Shown here one piece after another: positions 1 through 23,326 of a stretch of 64,000 nucleotides of DNA (the first letter of the stretch is position 1; every line of letters begins with the position of its first letter). The DNA lies in contig NZ_CANMUU010000002.1 in NCBI RefSeq assembly GCF_947501165.1, positions 744,001-808,000 on the forward strand. The letters run 5' to 3'. Origin of the DNA: an uncultured Allomuricauda sp. GTDB lineage: Bacteria > Bacteroidota > Bacteroidia > Flavobacteriales > Flavobacteriaceae. Made by a program: the position numbers and the translations under genes. The notes under the pieces are model-generated. The model did no database searches, had not been told where the DNA came from, and saw nothing but the letters and a program-made list of their open reading frames with translations.

Positions 1-602
1 GTATTCGCACCCTAAAGGTAAAACTAGGCAGTAATGATGGTATTGAAGCCGATAAAGCCATGTATAGTCAAGTGCTGGAATACCATAGAAAGTATCCCAT
101 ATCCATCCGGGTGGATGCCAATGGTGGGTGGGATGTAAAAGAAGCGCACCACATGATGCAATGGTTGTCTGAAAGGGAATGTGAATATGTAGAACAACCA
201 CTTAAAGAAGGACAAGAGGTGGATTTACCTTATTTATTTAAAAACAGACCTTTACCTATTTTTTTGGATGAATCCTGTCGGTTTGCAACCGACATTCCGA
301 AATGGGCCGATGCAGTGGATGGCGTGAACATGAAATTGATGAAATGTGGCGGTGTAACTGGAGCGCTACGGATTATTTCGACCGCCTACGCATTTGGTTT
401 AAAAACTATGATTGGTTGTATGGGGGAATCATCCATTTCCATAGCAGCAGGTGCAGCGGTATCCGGAGCACTGGACCATATTGATTTAGATTCCCATCTC
501 AATCTTAATCCAGACCCTTGCGAGGGTGCACCATTAATAAACGAAATTACCATGCCCATGGATGTGCCAGGTCATGGAGGTAAATTTAAATCCGAAGCAT
601 AA
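1..602 (+). CDS. Dipeptide epimerase / N-acetyl-D-Glu racemase-like enolase-superfamily enzyme, 3' part
   Basis: The gene enters from the left edge (codons in frame from base 3), so only about the last 200 residues are seen. They carry the catalytic signature of the muconate-lactonizing subgroup of the enolase superfamily: LKVKLG (KxK pair), VDANGGW (metal Asp), EQPL (metal Glu), DES (metal Asp) and MKLMKCGG (the opposite-face Lys). This is the barrel of L-Ala-D/L-Glu epimerases. Its stop codon directly abuts the ATG of a DUF1611 gene. In marine bacteria that neighbour pair has been described as DgcA (N-acetyl-D-glutamate racemase) and DgcN (D-glutamate N-acetyltransferase), so the substrate may be N-acetyl-D-Glu or a murein dipeptide. 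The choice between these substrates is inference. Confidence 0.85.
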   Translation, partial: IRTLKVKLGSNDGIEADKAMYSQVLEYHRKYPISIRVDANGGWDVKEAHHMMQWLSERECEYVEQPLKEGQEVDLPYLFKNRPLPIFLDESCRFATDIPKWADAVDGVNMKLMKCGGVTGALRIISTAYAFGLKTMIGCMGESSISIAAGAAVSGALDHIDLDSHLNLNPDPCEGAPLINEITMPMDVPGHGGKFKSEA

Positions 603-1634
603 ATGTTCAGCACAAAACAGAAATTATGCATCTACATGGAAGGAGCTCTGGATAATGATTCTGGTAAAATGGGCTTTGGACTCATGCGCTTTTCAAAACA
701 TCCCATCGTCTGTGTAATCGATTCTAAATTTCAAGGCAAAACAGTAGCAGAGGCAGTAAACCTTCCGTATTCAATCCCGGTAGTGGCTACCGTTGAAGAT
801 GCCCTAGTCAAGGGAAGCGAAATAATGGTGCTTGGTATTGCTCCAAGTGGGGGCAAATTCCCTGATTCATGGGATGAACCAGTTTCTTTTGCGTTGAAAA
901 ATGGACTATCGCTTATAAATGGCCTGCACGATGACTTAAATGCTCGTTTTGCCCATCTTTTGGGCGCCAACCGGATTTGGGATGTACGAAAACCCAAATC
1001 TTCTTATCCCATCGCCACAGGAAAAGCGGCAAAATTGGATAACAAAAGAATCCTAATGATTGGCACGGACATGGCCTCGGGAAAAATGACCGCAGGATTG
1101 GAACTCTATGCAGCTTTGCTGAAGAAAGAAGCTAATGTAGGTTTTGTGCCAACAGGACAAATTGGGATAACCCTTATGGGAAGCGGCATTCCTTTGGATG
1201 CCATAAAAGTAGACCAAGCAGCGGGAGCTGTGGAAGAAGCAGTTTTGGCCGAAAGGGATAAAGACATTATTATTGTGGAAGGTCAAGGGTCACTGGCTCA
1301 CCCAGGAAGTACCGCTACCCTACCCCTTATCCGTGGCACACAGGCTACCCATTTTATACTTTGCCACAAAGCAGCTAATGATCATTTAAGGTTTCCGGTA
1401 TCCCACGTGCCTATACCTCCTCTGGATGAATTCATTAAATTGAATGAAAACGTGGCTAAAGTATGTGGCTCACAATCTCCTGCCGAAACCGTAGGGATAG
1501 CCCTAAACACCATTGGTTTATCCAAAGCAGAAGCCGAAAACAAGGTAATGGAAATAGAAAAGCTTACAGGACTGCCCACAACCGATGTAGTCCGTTTTGG
1601 GGTAGAAAAACTAGTAAAAGCAATTATGCAATAA
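603..1634 (+). CDS. DUF1611 protein, DgcN-like D-glutamate N-acetyltransferase candidate
   Basis: A 343-residue protein of the DUF1611 family with an N-terminal Rossmann-like half and a C-terminal P-loop-like half. The loop GTDMASGKMT lies near residue 153, followed by VEGQGSLAHPG near residue 222. The ATG follows the stop of the epimerase gene with no gap, which implies translational coupling. DgcN from marine proteobacteria belongs to this family and acetylates D-glutamate before racemization by the epimerase homologue. The pairing here suggests the same route, D-Glu to N-acetyl-D-Glu to N-acetyl-L-Glu, probably for recycling peptidoglycan-derived D-Glu. The family assignment is firm; the reaction is inferred from gene order. 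Confidence 0.75.
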   Translation: MFSTKQKLCIYMEGALDNDSGKMGFGLMRFSKHPIVCVIDSKFQGKTVAEAVNLPYSIPVVATVEDALVKGSEIMVLGIAPSGGKFPDSWDEPVSFALKNGLSLINGLHDDLNARFAHLLGANRIWDVRKPKSSYPIATGKAAKLDNKRILMIGTDMASGKMTAGLELYAALLKKEANVGFVPTGQIGITLMGSGIPLDAIKVDQAAGAVEEAVLAERDKDIIIVEGQGSLAHPGSTATLPLIRGTQATHFILCHKAANDHLRFPVSHVPIPPLDEFIKLNENVAKVCGSQSPAETVGIALNTIGLSKAEAENKVMEIEKLTGLPTTDVVRFGVEKLVKAIMQ

Positions 1635-1652
1635 AATACATCCTTTGATATT

Positions 1653-3320
1653 ATGACCGATTTACAGATTGCCAAGAAAGTAAGCCTTAAACACATTACA
1701 GAAATAGCGAAAGCATTTGGAATTGGTCAAGAGGATATAGAAATGTATGGTAAGTTTAAAGCCAAGCTACCTTTAAGCGCCATCGACCCAAGAAAAGCGG
1801 CCAAGAGCAACTTGGTTCTAGTTTCTGCTATCTCTCCTACCCCTGCAGGTGAAGGAAAAACAACCATGTCCATCGGTTTATCCGAAGGTTTAAACCGATT
1901 GGGCAAAAAGACCACAGTGGTGCTGAGAGAACCCTCTTTGGGCCCTGTTTTTGGGATAAAAGGAGGAGCAACAGGTGGTGGTTATTCCCAAGTGCTTCCT
2001 ATGGAAGACATCAATCTTCACTTTACCGGTGATTTTTCAGCTATTGAAAAGGCACATAATCTGTTGGCAGCTTTGATTGATAACAATATCCAAAGTAAAA
2101 CGAATTCCCTCGGAATTGATGCAAGAACTGTAAGTTGGAAACGTGTTGTGGATGTTAATGATAGAGCGCTTAGACAAGTAATTGTCGGTTTAGGGGGAAC
2201 AACGTCAGGAGTGCCAAGAGAAACTGGTTTTGATATTACAGCAGCCTCAGAAATCATGGCCATTCTTTGCTTAGCTGATGATTTGAGTGATTTAAAGCGA
2301 AGACTGGGCAACATTTTTGTGGGCTACACCTACGACAAGGAACCCATCTATGCCAAAGACCTCAAAGCTCAGGGTGCGATGACCGCACTTTTAAAAGATG
2401 CCATCAAACCTAACTTGGTCCAAACCATTAAAGGCAATCCTGCTATTATACATGGTGGGCCTTTTGCTAATATCGCTCAGGGAACAAATTCAGTTATCGC
2501 AACCCTAATGGGAATGTCGCATTCCGAATACACTGTAACCGAAGCTGGTTTTGGATTTGATTTAGGTGCGGAGAAGTTTTTTGATATTAAATGTCAAAGT
2601 GCCGGATTAAAACCAAAGGCTGTAGTACTCACAACAACTATCCGCGCTTTAAAATATCACGGGGGAGCTGACCTTAAATCGCTAACTGAACCCAATGTAG
2701 AAGCGCTTAAAAAGGGACTGCCCAATCTTGAAAAGCACCTGGAAAACATTTCTAAGTTCAATATTACACCGGTCGTTTCAATCAATAACTTTTTAACGGA
2801 TACGGATGAGGAAATTGATGTAATCAAGGAGTTTGCAAAATTGAAAGGAGTTCGTGTGGCTTTGGCCGAAGTTTGGGCCAAAGGTGGTGAAGGCGCTCTA
2901 GAGCTGGCGCAGCATGTCATCAACATAATCGAATCCAATACCTCAGATTTTAAGCCTTTGTATTCTTGGAATCAAAGCGTCACTGAAAAAATCGAGACCA
3001 TTGCCAAAGAAATTTATGGTGCCGAACACGTGGATTATACCGCCAAAGCCAAAGCACATTTAAGGAAAATAACAAACCTTGGATTGGACCACTTACCTGT
3101 TTGTATTGCCAAAACCCAAAAATCCTTGTCTGATAATCCAAAATTATTGGGGCGCCCAAAAGATTTTATCATTACGGTGCGAGAGATTGAAATAGCGGCC
3201 GGCGCTGGATTTTTGATTCCAATAACCGGAAATATTATGCGAATGCCAGGATTACCGGCCCACCCAGCTTCGGAAGGAATGGATATTAATGAAGCGGGTG
3301 AAATAACAGGCCTATTCTAA
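1653..3320 (+). CDS. fhs: Formate--tetrahydrofolate ligase
   Basis: A 555-residue protein of standard length for Fhs, which makes 10-formyl-THF from formate, THF and ATP in the cytosol. The nucleotide loop PTPAGEGKTT lies at residues 62-71, and the family stretches FTGDFSAIEKAHNLL and REPSLGPVFGIKGGA are intact. It starts 18 bp after the DUF1611 gene on the same strand and may share its transcript, although no metabolic link to D-glutamate is evident. The next gene downstream has its own -7 promoter box. No frameshift or missing key residue was seen. Confidence 0.97.
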   Translation: MTDLQIAKKVSLKHITEIAKAFGIGQEDIEMYGKFKAKLPLSAIDPRKAAKSNLVLVSAISPTPAGEGKTTMSIGLSEGLNRLGKKTTVVLREPSLGPVFGIKGGATGGGYSQVLPMEDINLHFTGDFSAIEKAHNLLAALIDNNIQSKTNSLGIDARTVSWKRVVDVNDRALRQVIVGLGGTTSGVPRETGFDITAASEIMAILCLADDLSDLKRRLGNIFVGYTYDKEPIYAKDLKAQGAMTALLKDAIKPNLVQTIKGNPAIIHGGPFANIAQGTNSVIATLMGMSHSEYTVTEAGFGFDLGAEKFFDIKCQSAGLKPKAVVLTTTIRALKYHGGADLKSLTEPNVEALKKGLPNLEKHLENISKFNITPVVSINNFLTDTDEEIDVIKEFAKLKGVRVALAEVWAKGGEGALELAQHVINIIESNTSDFKPLYSWNQSVTEKIETIAKEIYGAEHVDYTAKAKAHLRKITNLGLDHLPVCIAKTQKSLSDNPKLLGRPKDFIITVREIEIAAGAGFLIPITGNIMRMPGLPAHPASEGMDINEAGEITGLF

Positions 3321-3352
3321 TATTCTTGGCTTTTAGCAATGCACCAAAGTCC

Positions 3353-3360
3353 TATCTTTG
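3353..3360 (+). promoter_or_regulatory. Bacteroidota-type -7 box (TATCTTTG) for mutS2
   Basis: TATCTTTG matches the Bacteroidota -7 consensus TAnnTTTG. It lies 18 nt before the mutS2 ATG. TTTT at 3331-3334, 18 nt upstream, is a poor but correctly spaced -33 element. Confidence 0.6.
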
Positions 3361-3378
3361 CGCTGCTATAAATAGAAA

Positions 3379-5550
3379 ATGCGGCAAATACATCCGAAAA
3401 CATTACAAGATCTAGAGTTTCCAACCATTTTGGAACAGCTTTCTGCACGCTGCAATACCGAATTGGGCAAAGCTGCAGCTCTTGAAATACAGCCTCTAGA
3501 AGACAAAGAATTACTGTTGAATGCCTTGGGGAGAACCTCAGAGTATCTAGCTTCGTTTTCCAATGAAAACAGAATTCCCAATCACGGTTTTGACACCATT
3601 AATGGAGAGTTAAGGTTATTGGCCATTGAAAATACAACCTTAGAAGTTTCAGGGTTTCGAAGAATTTCAGCCATTTGTACAACCTTGAGTCTGCATAAAA
3701 AGTTTTTCAAAAAGTTCAAGGAATATTATCCGTTGCTCTTTGAATTTTCAGAAAGTTTTGAAGAGAATAAATCTATTCCTGAAGAAACAAACAATGTCAT
3801 AGATAAGTTTGGGGAAGTAAGAGATACTGCCTCACTAGAGCTAAAGCATATCCGTCAACAAATCAACGAAGTACGGGGAAAAATCAATCAAAGTTTTGGT
3901 GTGGCGCTTCAACGCTATCAAACTTCAGAGTTTTTGGATGAGATTCGGGAATCTGTAGTAGAAAATCGAAGGGTATTGGCGGTTAAGGCCATGCATCGTA
4001 GAAAAGTGAAAGGAACTGTAATGGGTTCTTCCAAAACAGGAAGCATTGTTTACATTATTCCTGAGGCTACCCTGACCTACACACGGGAATTGAACAATTT
4101 GGAATATGACGAGAAAGAGGAAATTCAACGGATACTGAATGAACTCACAAATTTTATCCGCCCCTATCAAGAATTGCTAAAAGCGTATCAAGAATACCTT
4201 ATTGCAATAGATATCATTGCAGCCAAAGCGAAGTATGGTTCAGAAATGGATGCTATCCTTCCAGAAATCAATGAAGACAAACAATTGCATTTAAGGGATG
4301 CTTACCACCCACTACTCTATCTTTCCAACAAACTCAAAAAAGAAAAAACTTGGCCACAGACCATTCAACTTCATCCTGAAAACCGAATCATTGTAATTTC
4401 TGGGCCTAATGCGGGTGGAAAAAGTATCACTTTGAAAACCATAGGTTTGCTTCAAGTAATGCTACAAAGTGGTTTTCTGATTCCTGTGCATGAGCGAAGT
4501 TCAGTCTGCTTTTTTGATAGGATTTTAACGGATATTGGGGATAACCAATCTATTGAAAATCATTTGAGCACCTATAGTTATAGGCTCAAGAACATGAATG
4601 CTTTTCTGAAGAAGTGCAACAACAAAACCCTTTTCTTGATTGATGAATTTGGTACAGGTTCCGACCCCGAATTGGGAGGTGCTTTGGCCGAGGCTTTTCT
4701 GGAAGTTTTCTATGAAAGAGAAGCCTATGGGGTAATCACTACGCATTACGCCAACCTTAAAGCTTTGGCCAATGAATTACCCCATGTTACCAATGCTAAC
4801 ATGCGTTTCAATTCCAAGACCCTAGAGCCCACTTTTCAATTGGTTTTAGGCGAAGCAGGAAGTTCGTTCACCTTTGAAGTAGCTCAGAAAAACGGTATCC
4901 CCTATAGCCTCATCAACAAGGCCAAAAAGAAAATTGAGCGTGGCAAGGTTCGGTTTGATGCCACTATAGCAAAATTGCAAAAGGAACGCAATAAAATGGC
5001 TCAAACCGGTTCTCGACTACAAGAAGAAGAGAATAAAGCCCGTGAAGAAGCAGAAAAGTTGGAAAAACTGAATTCCAAAATCAAAAACAAACTGGAAAAC
5101 TACCAGGAACTATATGACCATAGTCAGCGTATGATACAACTTGGCAATAAGGTCAATACTGCCGCAGAACGCTATTTTGTTGATAATAAAAAGCGACCCT
5201 TGATATCAGAACTACTTCGTATTGTGGAAACGGAGAATAGTAAGCGTAAGAAAACCACAGCGAAGCAGGTCAAAGCCAAACAAGCGCAACAAAAACAAGT
5301 GGCCCAAGAACTGGAAAAAAAGATTGTCAAGGTTAGGCAGGAAAAGAAAATAGAAAAAAAGAAGGCGGAAAAGGCAGAAAAGAATAAACCCAGACCCATA
5401 TTTAAGATTGGAGACCGGGTTCGCATGTTTGACGGGAAAGCAGTGGGTAGTATTGATACCTTAGAAAAAGGGAAAGCTGTGGTGAATTATGGTATGTTTA
5501 CCACTAATGTGAGTGTGGACCAATTGGAACTTGTAGAAGCTAAAAAATGA
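3379..5550 (+). CDS. mutS2: MutS2-type ATPase without Smr domain
   Basis: A 723-residue MutS2 family protein. The core and clamp occupy the first ~330 residues, followed by the ATPase with Walker A GPNAGGKS near residue 342 and Walker B LFLIDEFGTGSDP near 417. A long Lys/Glu-rich coiled coil follows (about 515-665). The last ~50 residues form a KOW-like segment (FKIGDRVRMFDGKAVGSI). The C-terminal Smr endonuclease domain of Bacillus MutS2 is absent. MutS2 proteins suppress recombination and act on stalled or collided ribosomes; which role applies here cannot be told. The gene has its own promoter box and overlaps the next gene by 4 bp. Confidence 0.92.
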   Translation: MRQIHPKTLQDLEFPTILEQLSARCNTELGKAAALEIQPLEDKELLLNALGRTSEYLASFSNENRIPNHGFDTINGELRLLAIENTTLEVSGFRRISAICTTLSLHKKFFKKFKEYYPLLFEFSESFEENKSIPEETNNVIDKFGEVRDTASLELKHIRQQINEVRGKINQSFGVALQRYQTSEFLDEIRESVVENRRVLAVKAMHRRKVKGTVMGSSKTGSIVYIIPEATLTYTRELNNLEYDEKEEIQRILNELTNFIRPYQELLKAYQEYLIAIDIIAAKAKYGSEMDAILPEINEDKQLHLRDAYHPLLYLSNKLKKEKTWPQTIQLHPENRIIVISGPNAGGKSITLKTIGLLQVMLQSGFLIPVHERSSVCFFDRILTDIGDNQSIENHLSTYSYRLKNMNAFLKKCNNKTLFLIDEFGTGSDPELGGALAEAFLEVFYEREAYGVITTHYANLKALANELPHVTNANMRFNSKTLEPTFQLVLGEAGSSFTFEVAQKNGIPYSLINKAKKKIERGKVRFDATIAKLQKERNKMAQTGSRLQEEENKAREEAEKLEKLNSKIKNKLENYQELYDHSQRMIQLGNKVNTAAERYFVDNKKRPLISELLRIVETENSKRKKTTAKQVKAKQAQQKQVAQELEKKIVKVRQEKKIEKKKAEKAEKNKPRPIFKIGDRVRMFDGKAVGSIDTLEKGKAVVNYGMFTTNVSVDQLELVEAKK

Positions 5551-15443: not shown

Positions 15444-15679
15444 AAGATTATGTTTTTAAGTTAAACCCAGAATGTGTTGACGACACAAAAATACAGTTTC
15501 TACAAAAACAACATATTATGCACCAAAACCTTTAATTGCGGATAACCTTCCATTTTGGAACAAGATTTGGTATTTTAAAAATATAGAATTTCCTCTAAAA
15601 AGTGCGATTTACCCTCTCATATGGGTAGGATAATGGCAAAAATTAGATAAATTGAGGATATAAACGAGTTACCCAACAT

Positions 15680-16393
15680 TTGAAAAAAACTTTCGAACAT
15701 AACAATAAGCTATTGAAAATTCTTTTAAGGGAGAATATCTATTTTTCTGTTGGTACTATAATAATAACACCGATTTATTATTATTTAAGAAAAGGAGAGC
15801 AATTTGTTTTGGACTTTTTGTTTGTCAAAATAATGTCTGTGATTTTCTTAATATACAATCTGCCGAACTTCATTATTTACCTTGATTATTATAAAGAAAA
15901 TAGAGATACTAAAATTGAAATTGATACTGAATTAGGTACCATTGGAATTGTGAAAAATGGAATATCAAAACAATATAAAATATCAGAAATAAAATCTTCG
16001 GTTTATCATTTAGGAATTTATTATAAAAATCGGATTGACAATGCAAGACGTTGGAAAATGATAAACTCTGACCTCGCATATTGGGATTTGGAATTTAATA
16101 ATAGTGACAGATATTATATTTCAAATCTACTTGTGGACTTTTTGCACGACAAACCGATTGTGGACAATACAAAATATAGGTTTAGAATGTTTCAGTACAT
16201 TAACAAATCTGATTCTAAAGAAGCTGTTGAATTAAAACAAGTTCAAGAAAAAAATCGAACTGAAAAATTCGTCGAAAAATTTCAATCCAAATCAGAAAGT
16301 GAACTGAATGAAATTTTGAATAACAAATCAAAGTATCAGAAAGAAGCTGTAAAGGCTGTTGAAATAATAATGGAAAATAAAAACGTTGGGTAA
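15680..16393 (+). CDS. Cassette 1: membrane protein, unknown
   Basis: A 237-residue protein starting at TTG (no ATG is available upstream within the unit). Two N-terminal membrane segments (FSVGTIIITPIYYYL and VKIMSVIFLIYNLPNFIIYL) are followed by a soluble beta-rich part of PH-like character (IEIDTELGTIGIVKNG) and a charged helical tail. I do not recognise the family. The TAA stop is formed by the R'' core GGGTAAC of the downstream attC-like site, so the reading frame and the recombination site overlap. Confidence 0.75.
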   Translation: MKKTFEHNNKLLKILLRENIYFSVGTIIITPIYYYLRKGEQFVLDFLFVKIMSVIFLIYNLPNFIIYLDYYKENRDTKIEIDTELGTIGIVKNGISKQYKISEIKSSVYHLGIYYKNRIDNARRWKMINSDLAYWDLEFNNSDRYYISNLLVDFLHDKPIVDNTKYRFRMFQYINKSDSKEAVELKQVQEKNRTEKFVEKFQSKSESELNEILNNKSKYQKEAVKAVEIIMENKNVG

Positions 16394-16522
16394 CAATGTA
16401 TAACCGCAATTACTGTGGATTCGACTATGTCCGAATTCACTCGAAATTGCTAAAGCCTGTGCTAAACCGAAAATTAACGCTAATTTAATCCGTAACTGAT
16501 GGTTATATTAGACCGTTGCCAT
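16388..16522 (+). repeat. attC-like site 1
   Basis: The 5' core is GGGTAAC (16388-16394), the inner arm AATGTATAACC, the returning arm GGTTATA (16501-16507), and the 3' end GACCG with the cleavage-equivalent G at 16515. Bases 16385-16393 (GTTGGGTAA) are the reverse complement of the first nine bases of unit 1 (15669-15677, TTACCCAAC). Confidence 0.7.
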
Positions 16523-16530
16523 TAATTGAA

Positions 16531-17205
16531 ATGAAACTAACAGACCAAATAAAAATCCGAGAACTTAAATTCAAACCAAAGGTTGAGGTTTTAGAAAAAA
16601 CTGTTGAATTGAACGACATAGGAATTTCAATTCCAATACCCAAAGGATTTAAGGTTGATGACGGCGGAATTTTTGAAAATTTTAAAATGGAATATGTGTT
16701 TCCAGAAAACTCAGAATTTTCAAAAAAGGATAGAGAGAACTTTGAAAATGGAATCTTCCCACCTGTTTTCACTCTGAAAAAAACTAATAGAAGACCAATT
16801 ATTGCCTGTTATTTGTTTAAGGCTAAAGCTTTAAAAGGCGGAAGCAATCTAAATATTCGTAGTATAAACAAGTTTGAGTTAATGTGGGCTCCCTACTTGG
16901 CAAAAAAGACAAACGAAGTGCCAATGAATGCCAAAAGGATTTTAAAAAATAACTTGACCGGAGCGCTATCAACCGAATACGGATTTGACTATAAAACGAA
17001 AAGTGGAACTAAACCAATTCCATCAAATTTGAGAATATTGACTTACGAAGTTGGGAAATTTGTATTGACTATTTACTTGATTTACGACAATGCGCACAAT
17101 TTGGTGCAATCCGAATTGGATTCCTTTATTGACGGAATAAAAACTAATGGCAACAATGGCTATAATTCATTGTGGCTAAGAGCTAAATCGATGTTTAACC
17201 TATAA
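16531..17205 (+). CDS. Cassette 2: hypothetical cytosolic protein
   Basis: A 224-residue protein. I place the start at ATG 16531. A TTG at 16516 is in frame but forms the first bases of the cassette core, so it is an unlikely start. The protein has no signal or membrane segment. Its features include ELNDIGISIPIPKGFKVDDG and a Lys-rich middle. Family not recognised. The last ~19 residues (from NGNNGYNSLW) are encoded by the 5' arm of the attC-like site, so the stop lies inside the site, as seen in some integron cassettes. Confidence 0.7.
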   Translation: MKLTDQIKIRELKFKPKVEVLEKTVELNDIGISIPIPKGFKVDDGGIFENFKMEYVFPENSEFSKKDRENFENGIFPPVFTLKKTNRRPIIACYLFKAKALKGGSNLNIRSINKFELMWAPYLAKKTNEVPMNAKRILKNNLTGALSTEYGFDYKTKSGTKPIPSNLRILTYEVGKFVLTIYLIYDNAHNLVQSELDSFIDGIKTNGNNGYNSLWLRAKSMFNL

Positions 17206-17279
17206 ATCTAACGGCAGGATTTCAGCGGAATAATCCTTCGGATGATTCCACAACGAAATCATAGCCTAGACCGTTGTGC
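17148..17279 (+). repeat. attC-like site 2
   Basis: The 5' core is TGGCAAC (17148-17154). The arms GGCTATAATTCATTGTGG and CCACAACGAAATCATAGCC pair with few mismatches, and the 3' end is TAGACCG with G at 17273. TAATGGCAA leading into the core is the reverse complement of the unit start TTGCCATTA at 16516. Confidence 0.75.
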
Positions 17280-17401
17280 ATAATAAGAAACCTCAAATCA
17301 ATTATACTTGAGTTCAAATTTTGAATTTATTTATAACTAATAAATAATAGAAATCTTTAGACTTGACTTCGATAGAAATACAATCGTCCAAAATACATTT
17401 T

Positions 17402-18065
17402 ATGAAAAAACACAAAATAAAATTATTGATTACATTTATTTCAATTGGTGTAATTGTCTTCCTGATTGTAATTCTGCTTTTAAATCTATTTCCTGCAATG
17501 GATGATAATGGAAGAATGAATGTCATTGTAAATCTAATTACAAATATTTTAGGGACAATTATTGGGGCAGGATTAGCTTTTTATTTTGCTATCCGTCAAT
17601 TTACGATTCAGAAATCAAAAGAAAAGACCGATTCTGCTGTTGATTTAACTCTTGAATTTCACGAAAAATTTAATTCGAGTGAAATGTTTGAGGCTAGAGG
17701 TAAAGCAGATAAATTGATTTTAGAAAACCACTCTGAATCTTTAGCTAAACTGTTTGATAAATTCGAGGAAGATAAAACTCGTTGTGTATTTTTAATTGTA
17801 CGATTTTATGAACAACTCTGGTATTTTATTAAGCACGATAAGGTCGACTTAAAACTTGTTCCAGATTTTTTTTGGGAGTATCTTCTATTGGTGGTATATA
17901 GTTTGTTTCAAACACCAACTTCTTCAATCAAATTGGCAAGCAGGAAAAAATATAGAACTATTAAAAGAATGGTTTGATACTAATTCCAATAAATCAGACT
18001 TGGGAAATTGGATAGCAAATGCTGAGCAAGATAGAAAACGTAGGATTGAGGGAGAGAAACGATAA
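17402..18065 (+). pseudogene. Cassette 3: two-TM protein, frameshifted at a poly-T run
   Basis: The first part (ATG 17402; an in-frame TTG at 17363 is possible) has two membrane segments (LLITFISIGVIVFLIVILLL and ILGTIIGAGLAFYFAI) and a helical cytosolic part like DUF4760-type proteins. After VPDFF it would run out as SSIKLASRKK and stop at 17977. The other frame continues naturally with FYWWYIVCF and LKEWFDTNSN up to 18065. The shift maps to the run of eight T at 17866-17873; removing one T joins the two halves. This is either a real mutation or a sequencing error. Family not firmly recognised. Confidence 0.6.
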
Positions 18066-18093
18066 ATTAGAATTTAAGAGAATATAAAACTAT

Positions 18094-18326
18094 GCACAAC
18101 AATGTATAACCACAATTTACTCACGAATGTTTATTTTCAAAAGAGTTCGTCAGTCGCTCGGCTCTGGTCAGTGGATTCGACCACCCTTCGACTTCGCTCA
18201 GGGCAGGCTCAAGCGAATCCACCCCGCCTTGCCAGGCGTGGCAGGTCGGAATTGCGAGCGTCAGTGCTTAATCGAATAACAGTAATTTAAAACCCGTAAC
18301 TGACGGTTATACGAGACTGTTGGCAA
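18094..18326 (+). repeat. attC-like site 3, with an inserted REP-like hairpin in its loop
   Basis: The 5' core is GCACAAC, the inner arm AATGTATAACC, the returning arm ACGGTTATACGAGAC, and G at 18319. TATGCACAA leading into the core is the reverse complement of the unit start TTGTGCATA (17274). The site is about 100 bp longer than the others because its loop holds CCCTTCGACTTCGCTCAGGG and CGCCTTGCCAGGCG palindromes. Confidence 0.7.
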
Positions 18327-18330
18327 CAAT

Positions 18331-18732
18331 ATGAATAAACTAATAATTCTCTCGCTTATAATGGTCGGATTTTCTTCCTGTGGACAAAACCTGAAATGTG
18401 CGGATTTTAAAAACGGGGCTTTTTTGATTCCTGGAGATTCGATTTACTCAATTAGTTCTAACATAATTCGCAAAAATGGACGACAAGTGGAATGGGGAAA
18501 GGCTGGAGACAGTACGCATGCAATTATAAAGTATTTGGACGATTGCAACTGGATTTTGACCTATGATACTGAATTGAACGAATTGGATGAGTTGGAACAA
18601 CTAATTAACGATTCGGGCGGAGTAAAAGTTGAGGTGTTGGAAATAAAAGGAGATACTCTTTTCTACAATGGGATTTTGAAAAATGACACCTTACTTTTTG
18701 AGCAACCTGGGACTATTATAAAACTGAAATAA
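18331..18732 (+). CDS. Cassette 4: small lipoprotein, unknown
   Basis: A 133-residue protein with a lipoprotein signal ending GFSSC (Cys17). The mature part is hydrophilic and beta-rich (FLIPGDSIYSISSNIIRKNG, VLEIKGDTLFYNGIL). The only start is ATG 18331, 11 bp into the cassette. I do not recognise the family. It is probably anchored to the outer membrane or periplasmic face. There is no room for a private promoter between the cassette start and the gene, so it is likely read from upstream. Confidence 0.7.
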   Translation: MNKLIILSLIMVGFSSCGQNLKCADFKNGAFLIPGDSIYSISSNIIRKNGRQVEWGKAGDSTHAIIKYLDDCNWILTYDTELNELDELEQLINDSGGVKVEVLEIKGDTLFYNGILKNDTLLFEQPGTIIKLK

Positions 18733-18739
18733 ATACTGT

Positions 18740-18873
18740 TGCCAACAAGGGCTATAATTTATAGCTGCAATTTCGCTAACTTGAAACTACTAAACAATCA
18801 ACGGCTGGATTTGCCACGGTGGAAATGCTCCGCATTTCTTCACCGCCACAAATCATAGCCGAGACCGTTGGCA
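18740..18873 (+). repeat. attC-like site 4
   Basis: The 5' core is TGCCAAC, the inner arm GGGCTATAATTTATAGC, the returning arm CCACAAATCATAGCC, and the 3' end GAGACCG with G at 18867. TGTTGCCAA (18738-18745) is the reverse complement of the unit start TTGGCAACA (18320). Confidence 0.72.
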
Positions 18874-18888
18874 TTAATTTGAAAAAAT

Positions 18889-19239
18889 ATGAAAAAAACC
18901 GTTGTACATTTTGAAATAGGATGCAGTAATATTGATAAAACATCCGAATTCTATAAAACTGTCTTTGGTTGGAATTTAAAGAAACACGGAAATTCTGCCT
19001 TAATTGATACAGGAGAGGAAGATGCTTTAAGTGGACATATCAATAAATTGGGACCAGACGACCCTCAAAATTATGTAACCGTTTATATTGAAACTGACTC
19101 TCTGCATTCTGATTTAAACGCAATTGAATTAAACGGTGGAGAGATATTTGTAAAACCAATTAAACTACCCGATGGAAGAGAGTTCGCTTGGTTTAAAGAT
19201 GTAGCAGGAAATCTAATAGGACTAATTACACCCAAGTAA
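18889..19239 (+). CDS. Cassette 5: VOC (glyoxalase-like) family protein
   Basis: A 116-residue protein of the vicinal oxygen chelate superfamily: two beta-alpha-beta-beta-beta modules, with VVHFEIGCSNIDKTSEFYKT at the N-terminus and GREFAWFKDVAGNLIGLI at the C-terminus. The first module's His (VHFEIG) and a C-terminal pattern where a Glu is often replaced are typical of small VOC proteins that bind or modify small molecules or antibiotics. No substrate can be assigned. It starts 21 bp into its cassette unit. Confidence 0.85.
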   Translation: MKKTVVHFEIGCSNIDKTSEFYKTVFGWNLKKHGNSALIDTGEEDALSGHINKLGPDDPQNYVTVYIETDSLHSDLNAIELNGGEIFVKPIKLPDGREFAWFKDVAGNLIGLITPK

Positions 19240-19263
19240 ACGTAATTTGGATAAAAAAACTGC

Positions 19264-19394
19264 TTACAACAATGGCTATAAGTAATTGCTTGTTCTCGCC
19301 TACTTCTGAAAATCCGCGAGGATTTTCAGTTTGGTGTGTACTTGCTAAGTTAAGTACTAATAAACGCAACTACTTATAGCCGGGACCGTTGGTC
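19264..19394 (+). repeat. attC-like site 5
   Basis: The 5' core is TTACAAC, the arm GGCTATAAGTAATTGC pairs with GCAACTACTTATAGCC (15 of 16), and the 3' end is CGGGACCG with G at 19388. The core does not match the start of its own unit (TTGGCAT), unlike most other units. Confidence 0.7.
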
Positions 19395-19506
19395 ATAATA
19401 TCTCTATTATTATAATTTTCTTCTATAAGGAATTCAACCTTGTATACTGTAACAAATTTGTATTTGACTTATCTCTGATACATAAACTACTTTAAACTCT
19501 CAGAAA

Positions 19507-20217
19507 ATGAAGAAAATAGGAATATATTTATTACTATTATTTACCACGCTTTTTTCTACACATTGCTATGCGACCTGGTCTATTATTGCTGTAGATAGAA
19601 AAACAGGAGAAATAGGAATTGTAGGGGCTTCTTGCACCTTTGATGTATCATGGATAGGGTCCATAGAACCCGGAAAAGGGGCTGTTATAGTGCAGGCAGC
19701 GAGTAATTACTATGCCAAAATGCGAGGTGTTACGCTTATGGAGAATAATGCTTCAGCTCAGGAAATAATGGATGCAATGATGGCCAAAGAATTTGATCCC
19801 GAACTACAACAATACGGAGTAATCTTAGTTAATGACAACAGCAGCCCTTTGGTTTATTCTGGAGCTCAGATTAAAGATTGGAATGGCGAAATGTTAGGTG
19901 ATGATTTTGCGGTAATGGGCAACATACTTGCAGGAGAGGAAGTAGTTCAGAAAGCCTACGAGGCCTTTGATCAAAATAGGGACAAATCTTTAGCTGAACG
20001 CTTAATGCTAGCCCTTAAAGCTGGAGAACAAGCCGGAGGTGATAAAAGGTGTGGAACACAATATGCCAGATCCGCTTTTATGATGGTTTACAAACCTGAA
20101 GATGGAGCTATTTTAAAATTAGCAATTCAAGGTATTGAGAAAGGTGGTAAACCCGCTGTAACTTTACTAAATCAACAATTTGATTTTTGGCGTAAAGAAG
20201 AAAAAGAAAAAAACTAG
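19507..20217 (+). CDS. Cassette 6: DUF1028 family Ntn-hydrolase-like protein
   Basis: A 236-residue protein with a signal peptide (YLLLLFTTLFSTHCYA). The mature protein starts TWSIIAVDRKTGEIGIVGAS, the N-terminal pattern of DUF1028 (an Ntn-hydrolase fold where the residue after the cleavage site could act as nucleophile). A GGDKRCGTQYARSAFMMVYK stretch near the C-terminus is also typical. The role of the family is unknown, with peptidoglycan or peptide amide substrates suggested. It starts 118 bp into its unit, a longer leader than its neighbours. Confidence 0.85.
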   Translation: MKKIGIYLLLLFTTLFSTHCYATWSIIAVDRKTGEIGIVGASCTFDVSWIGSIEPGKGAVIVQAASNYYAKMRGVTLMENNASAQEIMDAMMAKEFDPELQQYGVILVNDNSSPLVYSGAQIKDWNGEMLGDDFAVMGNILAGEEVVQKAYEAFDQNRDKSLAERLMLALKAGEQAGGDKRCGTQYARSAFMMVYKPEDGAILKLAIQGIEKGGKPAVTLLNQQFDFWRKEEKEKN

Positions 20218-20224
20218 AAACTAC

Positions 20225-20356
20225 CCCCAACAACGTATATAAAAAATAGCGGTTTAGGTACAAATCTAAACCGCTATTGCGTTTAATTAACTATATTAAT
20301 TTCCGAAAAGTTAGTGTATTAAATACCGTGACTTTTTATATACTAGACCGTTAGGC
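20225..20356 (+). repeat. attC-like site 6
   Basis: The 5' core is CCCCAAC. The arm GTATATAAAAAATAGCGG pairs with CCGTGACTTTTTATATAC, a sequence unlike the other sites but still paired. The 3' end is TAGACCG with G at 20350. An internal hairpin TAGCGGTTTAG/CTAAACCGCTA fills the loop. The core shares only CCAA with its unit start TTGGTCA. Confidence 0.7.
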
Positions 20357-20373
20357 TCAATACTGAAAAGCTT

Positions 20374-20754
20374 TTGATATACAGAAAATCACAAATCGGA
20401 TGGGTAATACTCGGAATTATAGTTCTGACAATCATTTTACTATTCATCTTATTTGAAACTCAGTGGGGTGATAATCCTTTAACCATGGTTCCTTTTGTAA
20501 TAATATCCATTCTTTTATTAATTATACTACTCTTATTTTACAAACTTACCATTGAAGTTGGTGGATCTTATTTAAATGTGATTTATGGGATTGGATTGAT
20601 TAAAATCAAATTGAATATTGATGATCTCCTTGGTACAAAGGTGATAAGAACAGCATGGTATTATGGACTGGGAATTAGGTTTACGGTCATGGTTGGAACA
20701 GCAGAGCCAGAAAAGCTAAAGAGAGTCCTAGATGAAAATTTCAATAGAATATGA
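20374..20754 (+). CDS. Cassette 7: two-TM protein with PH-like tail
   Basis: A 126-residue protein beginning at TTG (no ATG in frame near the start). Two membrane segments (WVILGIIVLTIILLFILF and MVPFVIISILLLIILLLFY) precede a beta-rich soluble part (YKLTIEVGGSYLNVIYGIG) resembling bacterial PH-like domains. Family not firmly recognised. Its TGA stop lies in ATGAGCCTAAG, at the edge of the downstream attC-like core. Confidence 0.7.
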   Translation: MIYRKSQIGWVILGIIVLTIILLFILFETQWGDNPLTMVPFVIISILLLIILLLFYKLTIEVGGSYLNVIYGIGLIKIKLNIDDLLGTKVIRTAWYYGLGIRFTVMVGTAEPEKLKRVLDENFNRI

Positions 20755-20859
20755 GCCTAAGATTGGCTATAATTCATTGATGCTTTTTAACTAACTTGAA
20801 ATATATTAACAATTAACCCAGCTGGATTTCGGTGGAATCATACCCAAGTCCATTGGCAT
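20755..20859 (+). repeat. attC-like site 7 (altered cleavage base)
   Basis: The 5' core is GCCTAAG, the inner arm GGCTATAATTCATTG, the returning arm GGTGGAATCATACC, and the 3' end GTCCATTGG, where the usual G before TT is A (20852). GAGCCTAA leading into the core is the reverse complement of the unit start TTAGGCTC (20351). Confidence 0.62.
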
Positions 20860-20881
20860 TCATTCGAGTCGAGCAATAAGA

Positions 20882-21694
20882 ATGAAAAATATAGAAACCT
20901 ATATCGTTGACTCATTTACCGACCAACCTTTTAAAGGAAACCCAGCGGGGGTTTGCATAGTAAAGGATGAACTTTCTAATTCAGAAATGCTTTCAATTGC
21001 AAAAGAATTGGGATTGTCAGAAACAGCATTTATTGGAGAGTTAAATGAGAATAATGAATATCCAATCCGGTTCTTTTCACCTAAAATGGAAATACCTTTA
21101 TGTGGGCATGCTACTCTTGCGTCTTCAAAAGTTCTTTTTGAAAAAAACGGACAAAATTCAATTGTTTTTGTGAATATTCAGAACTTAAAATTACCCATTG
21201 AGCTCGATAAAGAATTTATAAAAATGGAATTCCCCATTTATGAGACAGTCCCTAACGAAGTCCCCTCTAAATTACTTGAAGCCCTTGGAATTAAAGAAGT
21301 AAACCATAGTGAGTTCAATGCTGAAACTAAAATACTGCTACTTGAAATTGAGAGCGCTCAATTATTAAAAAACCTTGCACCCGATTACGACAAATTAAAG
21401 AAATCGCATAAAGGGATTAATGGAGTACTTGTAACAGCACTTTCAGCAAAGTCAGGATTTGATTTTGAATCAAGGTATTTTTGGCCTTGGAGCGGAACAA
21501 ATGAAGACCCAGTAACTGGAGGAACACATACTTTTTTGGCAAAATATTGGGGAAAGAAATTAAATAAGTTAAAGATGAATTCTTTTCAATGTTCTGAAAG
21601 AACTGGATTTATGGAAGTTGAATTATTGAACGAAGAGAAAATGACGATAAAAAGTAAGGCTCAAATTGTTTTAAAAGGGGAATTGAAAATATAG
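20882..21694 (+). CDS. Cassette 8: PhzF family isomerase/epimerase-like protein
   Basis: A 270-residue PhzF-family protein. The N-terminal stretch VDSFTDQPFKGNPAGVCI, the catalytic-type Glu in LGLSETAFI, the conserved PLCGHATLASS, and the second-half counterpart DPVTGGTHTFLAKYWG are all present, so the two-domain diaminopimelate-epimerase-like fold is complete. Members isomerize small carboxylates; the substrate is unknown. The ATG lies 30 bp into the unit. Confidence 0.93.
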   Translation: MKNIETYIVDSFTDQPFKGNPAGVCIVKDELSNSEMLSIAKELGLSETAFIGELNENNEYPIRFFSPKMEIPLCGHATLASSKVLFEKNGQNSIVFVNIQNLKLPIELDKEFIKMEFPIYETVPNEVPSKLLEALGIKEVNHSEFNAETKILLLEIESAQLLKNLAPDYDKLKKSHKGINGVLVTALSAKSGFDFESRYFWPWSGTNEDPVTGGTHTFLAKYWGKKLNKLKMNSFQCSERTGFMEVELLNEEKMTIKSKAQIVLKGELKI

Positions 21695-21697
21695 CCT

Positions 21698-21766
21698 ATG
21701 CAAGCAATGGCTATATGTCCACGTTGGGCAAAAGCCCGCTACCATTAATACAAGAGACCGTTGTAA
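21698..21766 (+). repeat. attC-like site 8 (short variant)
   Basis: The 5' core is ATGCAAG followed by CAATGGCTATATG. The 3' end is AGAGACCG with G at 21760. At ~69 bp it is the shortest site, and arm pairing is weak. The core matches its unit start (TTGGCAT) only with a gap. Confidence 0.5.
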
Positions 21767-21802
21767 CACCTTTAACCAAACCGGAAAAAGTAGTCTATTA
21801 AA

Positions 21803-22354
21803 ATGAAAATACTGATATTCGGAGCATCTGGTTCGGGAACCACAACCTTAGGAAATGAAATTGGTAAAAGAACTGATTTTAAACATTTGGATGTTGACGA
21901 TTACTACTGGAAAAAAACCAATCCACCATACCAAGTAAAAATACCCTTGACCGAACGGAATATAAATCTAAAAGCGGACTTCAAAAAGTTTGAGAATGTC
22001 GTCGTAAGTGGTTCAATGGTAAGCTGGGGAATGGAATGGAAAACAGCATTTGACTTAGCAATATTTATCCAATTGGAAAATGCCAAAAGAATGGAGCGAC
22101 TTAAAAACCGAGAAGCTGTACGTTACGGAGAAAAACTACTGACGGACAAAAATATCCAAAAGAACTCGAACGCATTTTTGGAATGGGCAAACCAATATGA
22201 AAATCCAAACTTTGATGGTCGCTCTTTGAAAGTTCATAATAATTGGATTGAAATGCTGGATTGTAAAATATTAAGGTTAAATGGAGCGACTGAATTGAAT
22301 GAAAATGTAGAAATAGTATTGAACAAAATAAAAGCGTGTTACAACAATGTATAA
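21803..22354 (+). CDS. Cassette 9: P-loop nucleotide-kinase-like protein
   Basis: A 183-residue P-loop NTPase with Walker A GASGSGTTTLG (residues 7-17). The Thr in place of the usual Lys (SGTTT rather than SGKTT) is seen in a subset of adenylate-kinase-like AAA proteins. VDDYYWKKTNPPYQ near residue 32 and RLKNREAVRYGEK later match the shikimate/adenylate-kinase-like group, whose substrates are mostly unknown. The final codons and stop (YNNV, TAA) overlap the downstream site. Confidence 0.85.
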   Translation: MKILIFGASGSGTTTLGNEIGKRTDFKHLDVDDYYWKKTNPPYQVKIPLTERNINLKADFKKFENVVVSGSMVSWGMEWKTAFDLAIFIQLENAKRMERLKNREAVRYGEKLLTDKNIQKNSNAFLEWANQYENPNFDGRSLKVHNNWIEMLDCKILRLNGATELNENVEIVLNKIKACYNNV

Positions 22355-22538
22355 ACATAATGTACTCACCAATGTTCATCCTTAAAGGTGTTCGTGGGTC
22401 GCTTTGCTCCAGTTGACTGATTTGGCTACCCTTCGACTTCGTTCAAGATAAATTAATCCATTCAGAATGGCTTACTATGCGTTCTTATTCGAAAAACAAT
22501 AACTTAAAACCCGTAGCTTAAGGGTATGACCGCCAAAT
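22339..22538 (+). repeat. attC-like site 9 (terminal, partly decayed)
   Basis: The 5' core is TTACAAC and the 3' end TATGACCG with G at 22532; the base pair after G is CC, not TT. GTGTTACAA leading into the core is the reverse complement of the unit start TTGTAACAC (21761). The loop holds a CCCTTCGACTTCG REP-like segment. The ATG of the next gene (22526) lies inside the site. Confidence 0.6.
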
Positions 22539-23326
22539 ACGATAAAATAGGAGTTGATTACAATCTGACACGAAAAGCAGACCCCTATTTAACCCAACAA
22601 CTGCTTTACCATTTACAACCCACCAAAAATGGCAGATATTTGGACATTGGCTGCGGGACAGGCAATTATACCCATGCTTTTCAAAAAAAAGGATATGATT
22701 TTATGGGTGTTGACCCCTCTAAAGTCATGCTGGATAGAGCAAGGAGGAAAAACCAAGAGATTGTTTGGAAAATAGGTTCAGCAGAAAACACTGGACTTCT
22801 TGAATCAAGTTTTGATGGTATCATTGGCTCTCTTACTATACACCATTGGACCAATTTGGAGTTAGCTTTTTTGGAATTGTTTAAGATTTTAAAACCCAAC
22901 CGGCGCATCGTAATCTTAACTTCAACGCCTATACAAATGAAGGGGTATTGGCTCAATCACTATTTTCCAAAAATGTTATTGGATTCCATAGTTCAAATGC
23001 CAAGCATGGAGCAAGTTAAAGAAGCGATCACCTTAAGCGGATTTGAGTTTCTGGAAACACACAAATATTTTATACAACCTAATTTGGAAGACCATTTTCT
23101 ATATTGTGGTAAACATAATCCAGAACTCTATTTTGATGAAAGAATTAGAAGTGGTATTTCCTCATTTTCTTCCTTGTCCAACAGGACAGAAGTAAAAAAT
23201 GGATTGTTACGATTGCGGGAAGATATAGACAGTGGAGAAATCAAGAATGTCATGAAGACCTATGAAAACGATTTTGGGGACTACCTTTTTATTATTGGTA
23301 AAACGCCGTTAGGTCCTAAGGTTTAA
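22526..23326 (+). CDS. Class I SAM-dependent methyltransferase
   Basis: A 266-residue methyltransferase. It has motif I LDIGCGTGNY (residues ~38-47), the acidic motif II in FMGVDPSK, and IIGSLTIHHW at motif IV, as in UbiE/Methyltransf_11 enzymes. The start KYDKIGVDYNLTRKADPYL is typical of the family, which supports ATG 22526 even though it lies within the 3' end of attC-like site 9. Substrate unknown. It seems to be the first gene past the intact part of the array. Confidence 0.9.
   Translation: MTAKYDKIGVDYNLTRKADPYLTQQLLYHLQPTKNGRYLDIGCGTGNYTHAFQKKGYDFMGVDPSKVMLDRARRKNQEIVWKIGSAENTGLLESSFDGIIGSLTIHHWTNLELAFLELFKILKPNRRIVILTSTPIQMKGYWLNHYFPKMLLDSIVQMPSMEQVKEAITLSGFEFLETHKYFIQPNLEDHFLYCGKHNPELYFDERIRSGISSFSSLSNRTEVKNGLLRLREDIDSGEIKNVMKTYENDFGDYLFIIGKTPLGPKV

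Follow-up and report, generated by a model that had tools for sequence, protein, structure and literature searches.

The window analysed here is a 64,000-nucleotide stretch from an uncultured marine Allomuricauda sp., corresponding to C2:744001-808000 of its genome (G000; 3.73 Mb in 13 contigs). Nine one-gene units lying back to back at positions 15669-22532 of this window very probably form the cassette array of an integron-like platform, in which a recombinase would join circular one-gene units at a G|TT point. What the comparison of sequences shows is that different cassettes follow one and the same insertion point (attI), that boundaries fall exactly at G|TT, that units are duplicated, that site stems covary and include a strand-asymmetric A.C pair, and that the recombinase has no additional domain of IntI; we regard the comparative evidence for insertion at G|TT as strong. 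By these signs the platform acts like an integron, yet without the additional domain of the integrase; because the additional domain was tested for and found absent, we do not class it as an integron proper.

Different cassettes behind one attI

A first-pass annotation of the window had described nine back-to-back units with one + strand gene each and no integrase. The units and their bounds were borne out, with the longest listed open reading frame (ORF) on the + strand in 9/9 of them, but the array begins further upstream, at a copy of attI. The search of the genome for a tyrosine recombinase, which had been suggested as a check, led to P0001, a protein of 282 amino acids encoded on the - strand of the same contig (G000:C2:1255447-1256292). 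Since the last 125 nt of the P0001 leader recur before unit 1, with homology ending at ...ACGAG|TT, the window array stands behind a copy of an attI whose matching recombinase sits ~0.5 Mb away. A second array lies behind the P0001 leader on the + strand, and the gene adjoining P0001 was read by eye as purA, a candidate name. The genome has ten Phage_integrase matches, all outside the window, and also encodes XerD- and XerC-like proteins. Given P0001, the absence of an integrase is true of the locus and not of the genome.

CALIN and In0 are terms for incomplete integrons. The window array resembles these in having no complete integrase gene beside it; it differs from them in that the attI copy is retained and in that a recombinase with a matching attI is found elsewhere in the genome.

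Comparison within the genus revealed the same attI with changing contents. Five platforms (L182-L186) are identical over the last 900 bp through the TT of attI, a stretch that takes in almost all of the recombinase gene; L187, a sixth platform, has 94.3% identity to them. Together, the six carry six different first units behind one attI. A unit of 0.75 kb stands first in L186 and occurs twice in tandem in L185, its copies being 99.4-100% identical. The first-pass annotation had named close relatives with the same genes in the same order and with the repeats absent or elsewhere as a finding that would speak against a cassette array; this is not what the six platforms show, which share recombinase and attI and differ in their cassettes, a comparison made at these platforms and not at the window locus. 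In locus L070, a 267-nt unit is present four times in one array (- strand, at 4589, 5995, 7786 and 11410); the copies show 0-3 mismatches, are bounded by G|TT on either side and do not have the same neighbours. Its longest ATG frame has 71 codons, and its own G+C-rich site was not found by our site model. Elsewhere in this array (genome G133; L070 13040-14100, read on the - strand), a reverse transcriptase-like stretch with a YADD-like motif was noticed by eye.

Plasmid and phage protein searches yielded a pair of plasmids, pSMS7 of Arenibacter algicola (Sweden) and a plasmid of Flagellimonas marinaquae (China), that share 99.993% identity across 13,905 compared bp and part at the G|TT of attI. 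The first unit after attI encodes a hypothetical protein in pSMS7 and erm(F) in the Flagellimonas plasmid, and the start of either unit matches the site of that unit over at least 8 nt. In the erm(F) unit (L196, NZ_CP092416.1, 11655-12815), the match extends over 8 nt and the gene reads against the unit direction. The pair is not independent of the genus comparison, since L183 is the same Flagellimonas plasmid. At NCBI, the recombinase of the two plasmid copies is labelled 'site-specific tyrosine recombinase/integron integrase', with the gene name xerA on one. The platforms also ride mobilizable plasmids common to two genera, one of them with an erm(F) unit.

These observations bear on whether the array is a decayed, immobile relic, that is, a CALIN-like fossil. 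At the window locus, only the first recombinase codons are left, and three of the nine units as well as the last site are degraded. Against this, the genome contains, besides an open recombinase gene, a second array and an attI that is almost the same, and attI is where two near-identical plasmids differ. The open gene and the differing plasmids indicate that the system as a whole is no relic; the window array alone may be one, though we rate this as unlikely.

Unit starts, sites and their fold

The first-pass annotation had noted that the beginning of six of the nine units is the reverse complement of bases leading into the unit's own downstream site. We confirmed this for units 1, 2, 3, 4, 7 and 9, in which exactly nine starting bases are complementary to the nine bases through the AA of the own site motif (AAC, and AAG in unit 7). 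The match extends over only 3, 4 and 3 bases in units 5, 6 and 8. The same relation holds across loci. The loci collected first comprise 53 units, of which 31 are complementary to their own site over at least 7 nt; this set was built from 77 of 79 model matches (leaving out L080 11015-11058 and L091 799-909) and from the sites of window units 3, 8 and 9 (S3, S8 and S9), which were set by hand. A larger set adds 13 loci of the genus with 48 of 50 further matches (without two partial matches in L188), its units being required to start with TT, to have AAC in the site and to be 120-4000 long, and three repeated head/tail pairs being removed (82 to 79 units); it does not contain the first unit of L033, which matches over 9 nt. 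Here, 57/79 distinct units match their own site over at least 7 nt versus 140/6162 cross pairs, and 2000 permutations gave a maximum of 9/79.

The longest complementary run in this set is 9 nt. Beyond the run, 49 of the 57 matched units have an A at the unit start opposite a C on the site side, followed by two further complementary bases; this A.C follows nine bases in 31 units, an extra base in the R'' arm in 11 and a mismatch in 7, and reads as a T.G wobble on the bottom strand. The longest ORF lies on the strand of the site in 81/87 units and on the opposite strand in 2; the remaining 4 have no ORF of 60 amino acids.

We also counted links between unit starts and sites without any site model. 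Per 100 kb, the ten array loci taken as positives had 44 links and 14 IntI loci had 9. Ten Xer loci gave 0, and the rate was 0.7 for 18 domain-less loci of Proteobacteria, 2.6 for five archaeal loci and 2.7 for five others. An earlier unit finder had been dropped because it was strand-symmetric, blind to orientation and prone to chance links.

A gene flanked by 9-nt inverted repeats could also suggest that the units are small transposons, each bounded by short inverted repeats at its termini. We consider this hardly credible: the repeats differ between units, the second one sits before a site of ~120 nt rather than at the unit end, and no Pfam match to a transposase family was obtained among the nine window genes.

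With regard to the shared site ends described by the first-pass annotation, two site-end patterns occur 4 and 3 times in the window compared with means of 0.07 and 0.02 after shuffling. Searching with both ends as a regular expression gave many false matches outside arrays, and a covariance model was used instead. It was built from 19 hand-picked sites of six genomes, including those of window units 1, 2, 4, 5 and 6 (S1, S2, S4, S5 and S6). In the window it recovers these training sites at 75-107 bits and the site of unit 7, which was not used for training, at 31 bits; S3, S8 and S9 were not found at E<=0.01. Sites of the family are often 122-126 nt long. Two matches were obtained in Rfam, neither of which reached the gathering score.

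In the 19 sites, 84.5% of stem cells pair versus 64.5% after shuffling, double-change cells number 61 versus 17.6, and slid versions score far lower; this result is favoured by the choice of the sites, which had included a stem requirement. When sites of 100-140 nt were defined by their R arms alone, the L stem paired in 60/82 readings versus 136/972 cross pairs; most links enter the 82 readings from both strands and are hence counted twice. A single pair of the L stem is A.C in 59/61 sites, 19 of them training sites, and the neighbouring pairs vary by compensation. Extra bases are not a regular feature of the L stem, which has the invariant A.C instead; the R'' arm carries one in 11/57 matched units. 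Among 1159 stem cells, 976 are Watson-Crick pairs, 123 are G.T on the bottom strand only, 20 are G.T on the top strand only, 39 are other combinations and 1 is a gap. The one-sidedness of the G.T cells (123 vs 20) speaks for the bottom strand as the one that folds. An alignment of bottom strands (A4) was left unused since its stems aligned less well by eye.

Alternatively, a double-stranded site-specific system of the Cre or Xer type could join duplex sites at G|TT, the hairpins being incidental or protein-binding repeats. Such recombination would also leave exact G|TT boundaries, the recombinase lacks the IntI domain that has been linked to single-strand substrates (PMC7790495; this and the other papers cited are represented here by extracts, to which our statements about them are limited), and the folding of each site proposed by the first-pass annotation favoured the bottom strand, by whole-site DNA folding energy, in only 5/9 window sites. 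A duplex system, however, leaves unexplained why the variable arm before the site is exactly complementary to a unit start at a distance of several hundred bases (57/79), why the L stems covary and why the A.C pairs are one-sided. We hold it to be distinctly improbable.

The first-pass annotation had also remarked that the core departs from GTTRRRY in most units. The departure is present, but is not unusual by itself, as units of the canonical IntI locus L140 depart from it too. A control for canonical attC sites with a fixed GTTRRRY motif found nothing at 14 IntI loci. When the control was loosened, most of the units obtained were in L140, which establishes no more than that the core of L140 is variable, too. 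Taken together, the complementarity of unit starts and sites, the covariation, the platforms L182-L187, the plasmid pair and the repeated 267-nt unit support the earlier proposal of cassette-like insertion at G|TT with a distinct site family.

A recombinase without the additional domain

P0001 scores 192.2 bits against the integron integrase model TIGR02249, its best NCBIfam model, and 190, 172 and 158 bits against XerA, XerD and XerC; the cut-off of TIGR02249 is 265. Its match to VchIntIA (2A3V) breaks, residues 9-174 fitting 8-173 and residues 204-277 fitting 246-319. Across the 40 alignment columns of the additional domain, IntI rows fill 39-40 (14/14), whereas rows of the P0001 family fill 0-3 (28/28). 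Residues R136, K161, K164, H225, R228, H251 and Y260 are invariant in 20 sequences (alignment A6); we take R, K, H-x-x-R, H and Y to be the catalytic residues of tyrosine recombinases. The C-terminal ending is of the SP[LF] type, as in 2A3V.

For phylogenetic analysis, the domain columns were removed and a subset of 52 rows was chosen; 13 of 80 proteins from the contig scan had been kept out by judgement (short, partly matched or with broken frames) before any tree was made. IntI (100/100) and the sampled Xer proteins (100/100) each form a clade, and the family forms a separate one (87/89) that includes P0001 (99/92); domain-less groups lie around the IntI and family clades. In the first tree (76 rows), the 16 rows for which sites were detected do not make up a clade of their own (p 2e-44), because rows without detected sites lie among them.

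This topology bears on whether the platform is a canonical integron whose integrase secondarily lost the additional domain in Bacteroidota, within the IntI family. The rank of TIGR02249 among the models (192 bits) and the SP[LF]-type ending would fit such a loss, and approximately unbiased (AU) tests reject neither the family with IntI as one clade (p 0.455) nor P0001 with IntI (p 0.44), which speaks against a simple story. The separation of domain-bearing IntI from the family, the domain-less groups around them, the place of P0001 within the family and its score below the TIGR02249 cut-off count against it, and we place a secondary loss on the unlikely side. With regard to origins, a domain-less integron ancestor, convergence and loss may all be compatible with the data, loss being in our view the least likely of them.

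Overall, the platforms share with integrons a tyrosine recombinase gene beside the point of insertion, one-gene units in tandem that mostly point the same way, G|TT as the place of insertion, unit starts that pair with their own site, and a foldable two-stem site with unequal spacers. They differ from integrons in a recombinase that lacks the additional domain of ~41 amino acids and falls below the IntI cut-off, in sites that are often 122-126 nt long, and in the invariant L-stem and recurrent R-stem A.C pairs. With XerC, XerD and XerA, their dif systems and IMEX elements they have the tyrosine recombinase superfamily in common; in contrast to these, the family forms a clade apart from sampled Xer and is associated with arrays of foldable sites with variable arms.

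We propose that P0001 and its Bacteroidota family, with P0001 as the probable enzyme, would join circular one-gene units at G|TT into either of two targets, the double-stranded attI beside the recombinase gene or sites within an array. The site would fold, most likely from the bottom strand as a single-stranded substrate, into R and L stems, the R stem consisting of the first bases of a unit and the bases before its own site. P0001 would serve the window array in trans. Polarity, for which IntI relies on its extra domain and on extrahelical bases, may here be set by T.G wobbles or by the unequal spacers. The features of attC used here were taken from PMC2727003, according to which extrahelical bases choose the strand.

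An insertion that is not fully conserved has been reported for an integron-like subgroup of recombinases (PMC8138268). The platforms described here differ from that account, which calls the insertion essential for integron function and, in the extract, tells of no cassette arrays for members without it. The I2 helix has been described as necessary for cassette capture and as an innovation that enabled the use of single-stranded DNA, intermediates being lacking (PMC7790495). A natural family that seems to capture cassettes without I2 makes this claim directly testable. We see about even chances that Bacteroidota harbour a second widespread lineage of cassette capture, whose recombinase never had the additional domain (the I2 helix), which represents a pre-domain state of integrons or an independent origin of recombination on folded DNA, and in which T.G wobbles at set positions of both stems mark the strand.

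With respect to earlier records, a survey from 2008 counted the Bacteroidetes/Chlorobi group among intI bearers, with genes chosen by the additional domain or patch (PMC2426708). IntegronFinder 2.0 refers to earlier In0 in Bacteroidetes and to one complete integron in Salinibacter ruber (PMC9024848), and Bacteroidota are listed in PMC8618304. Because the standard finder relies on the IntI-specific domain (PMC9668308), the platforms are presumably not recognised as complete integrons, despite sites in 123/296 Bacteroidota genomes. Our literature search, which covered titles and the beginnings of abstracts and had most subscription papers and preprints outside its reach, found no description of these platforms among the papers listed; they are likely to be new.

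Distribution and contents of the window array

Recombinase relatives were detected in 54/196 genomes of the order at E<=1e-40 and in 30/60 genomes of the genus at E<=1e-45. At E<=1e-4, sites of the family were found in 75/196 genomes of the order and in the sample of the phylum Bacteroidota mentioned above. Sites occur in 46/54 order genomes with a recombinase (E<=1e-40) versus 29/142 without, the listings having been compared by hand and the genomes not being independent. As a control, sites were present in 1/49 non-Bacteroidota genomes, each of which has a recombinase relative. The one is a KSB1 metagenome-assembled genome, with sites at G557:C139:8206, C248:12783 and C238:34290, which may stem from transfer or from contamination.

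A scan of contigs was made for the recombinase, of which the best 80 of at least 593 places were kept. Two layouts were seen. In the divergent layout, seen in six loci, the array runs opposite to the recombinase, which is short (272-282 amino acids). In the same-strand layout, seen in ten loci of the scan, the array lies downstream of the recombinase, with open frames of at least 345 amino acids and gene starts as predicted. In 7/8 same-strand loci tried (of 10), the distance from the recombinase gene to the start of the first unit is 36 to about 450 nt; no first-unit start was found in L097. Of the best 80 loci, 28 are Bacteroidota by title, four of these being Xer-like; many contigs are short and several end early.

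Several findings weigh against reading the stretch as the array of a mobile cassette system. Eight genomes with a recombinase relative have no detected site, and sites extend beyond the recombinase in only 10 of the best 80 loci (Flavobacterium, Lutibacter, Algibacter, Zunongwangia, Aquiflexum, Arundinibacter, Lewinella and three less closely named Bacteroidota), an eleventh having one weak match elsewhere. Related domain-less recombinases without detected arrays adjoin the family in the tree. Complementarity of unit start and site is absent in 22/79 units (3/9 in the window), a group that may comprise decayed units, fused units and units with missed sites. Repeats scattered over the genome without single genes had been named by the first-pass annotation as an adverse sign; among 14 sites at E<=1e-3 in the genome, seven lie inside the two arrays and seven outside both, so that isolated sites do exist. 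The folding energies given above belong here as well.

The features of the window array and the isolated sites are listed in Table 1.

Table 1 Features of the window array (window coordinates) and isolated sites of the same genome (contig coordinates)
Feature	Position	Strand	Description
Recombinase-gene remnant	15534..15553	-	Start codon 15551-15553 and six to seven codons; homology with L033 reaches the start of gene L033:1945-2793(-)
Leader and attI copy	15544..15668	+	Insertion point ...GGATATAAACGAG|TT; 5 mismatches/125 nt vs leader of intact platform L033; homology stops at G|TT
Cassette 1	15669..16515	+	237-aa ORF, no Pfam match; site 16385-16515, 80.8 bits (training site); 9-nt self-complementarity
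Cassette 2	16516..17273	+	229-aa ORF, no Pfam match; site 17145-17273, 85.4 bits (training site); 9 nt
Cassette 3	17274..18319	+	204-aa ORF, weak DUF4760 match below cut-off; site 18091-18319, long loop, no model match at E<=0.01; 9 nt
Cassette 4	18320..18867	+	133-aa ORF, no Pfam match; site 18737-18867, 74.6 bits (training site); 9 nt
Cassette 5	18868..19388	+	Glyoxalase-like (PF00903); site 19261-19388, 106.8 bits (training site); start vs own site only 3 nt
Cassette 6	19389..20350	+	DUF1028 (PF06267); site 20222-20350, 88.0 bits (training site); start vs own site only 4 nt
Cassette 7	20351..20852	+	126-aa ORF, weak TgpA_N match below cut-off; site 20752-20852, decayed ends, 31.1 bits (not training); 9 nt
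Cassette 8	20853..21760	+	PhzF-like (PF02567); short site 21695-21760, no model match at E<=0.01; start vs own site only 3 nt
Cassette 9	21761..22532	+	AAA_18 kinase-like (PF13238); site 22336-22532, 3' end G|CC not G|TT, no model match at E<=0.01; 9 nt
Methyltransferase gene, end of array	22526..23326	+	From ORF list, PF08241; start codon overlaps 3' end of last site (22526-22532)
Seven isolated sites	G000:C2:355560, C2:356590, C1:1102459, C1:1445482, C3:174428, C1:151191, C1:1327963		E<=1e-3

Matches to the gene after the window array were found in 13/60 genomes of the genus; a region of genome G222 (L193), fetched through this gene, had no site at E<=0.01. In locus L034, a single unit, perhaps a lone insertion, lies between two isolated sites; the start of this unit agrees with its own site at 8/9 bases. 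A PADLOC search with six window proteins gave one weak match. The first-cassette protein of the intact platform L033 (L033:3264-4148) matches PADLOC capP (4.8e-15) and is possibly a defence-related protein.

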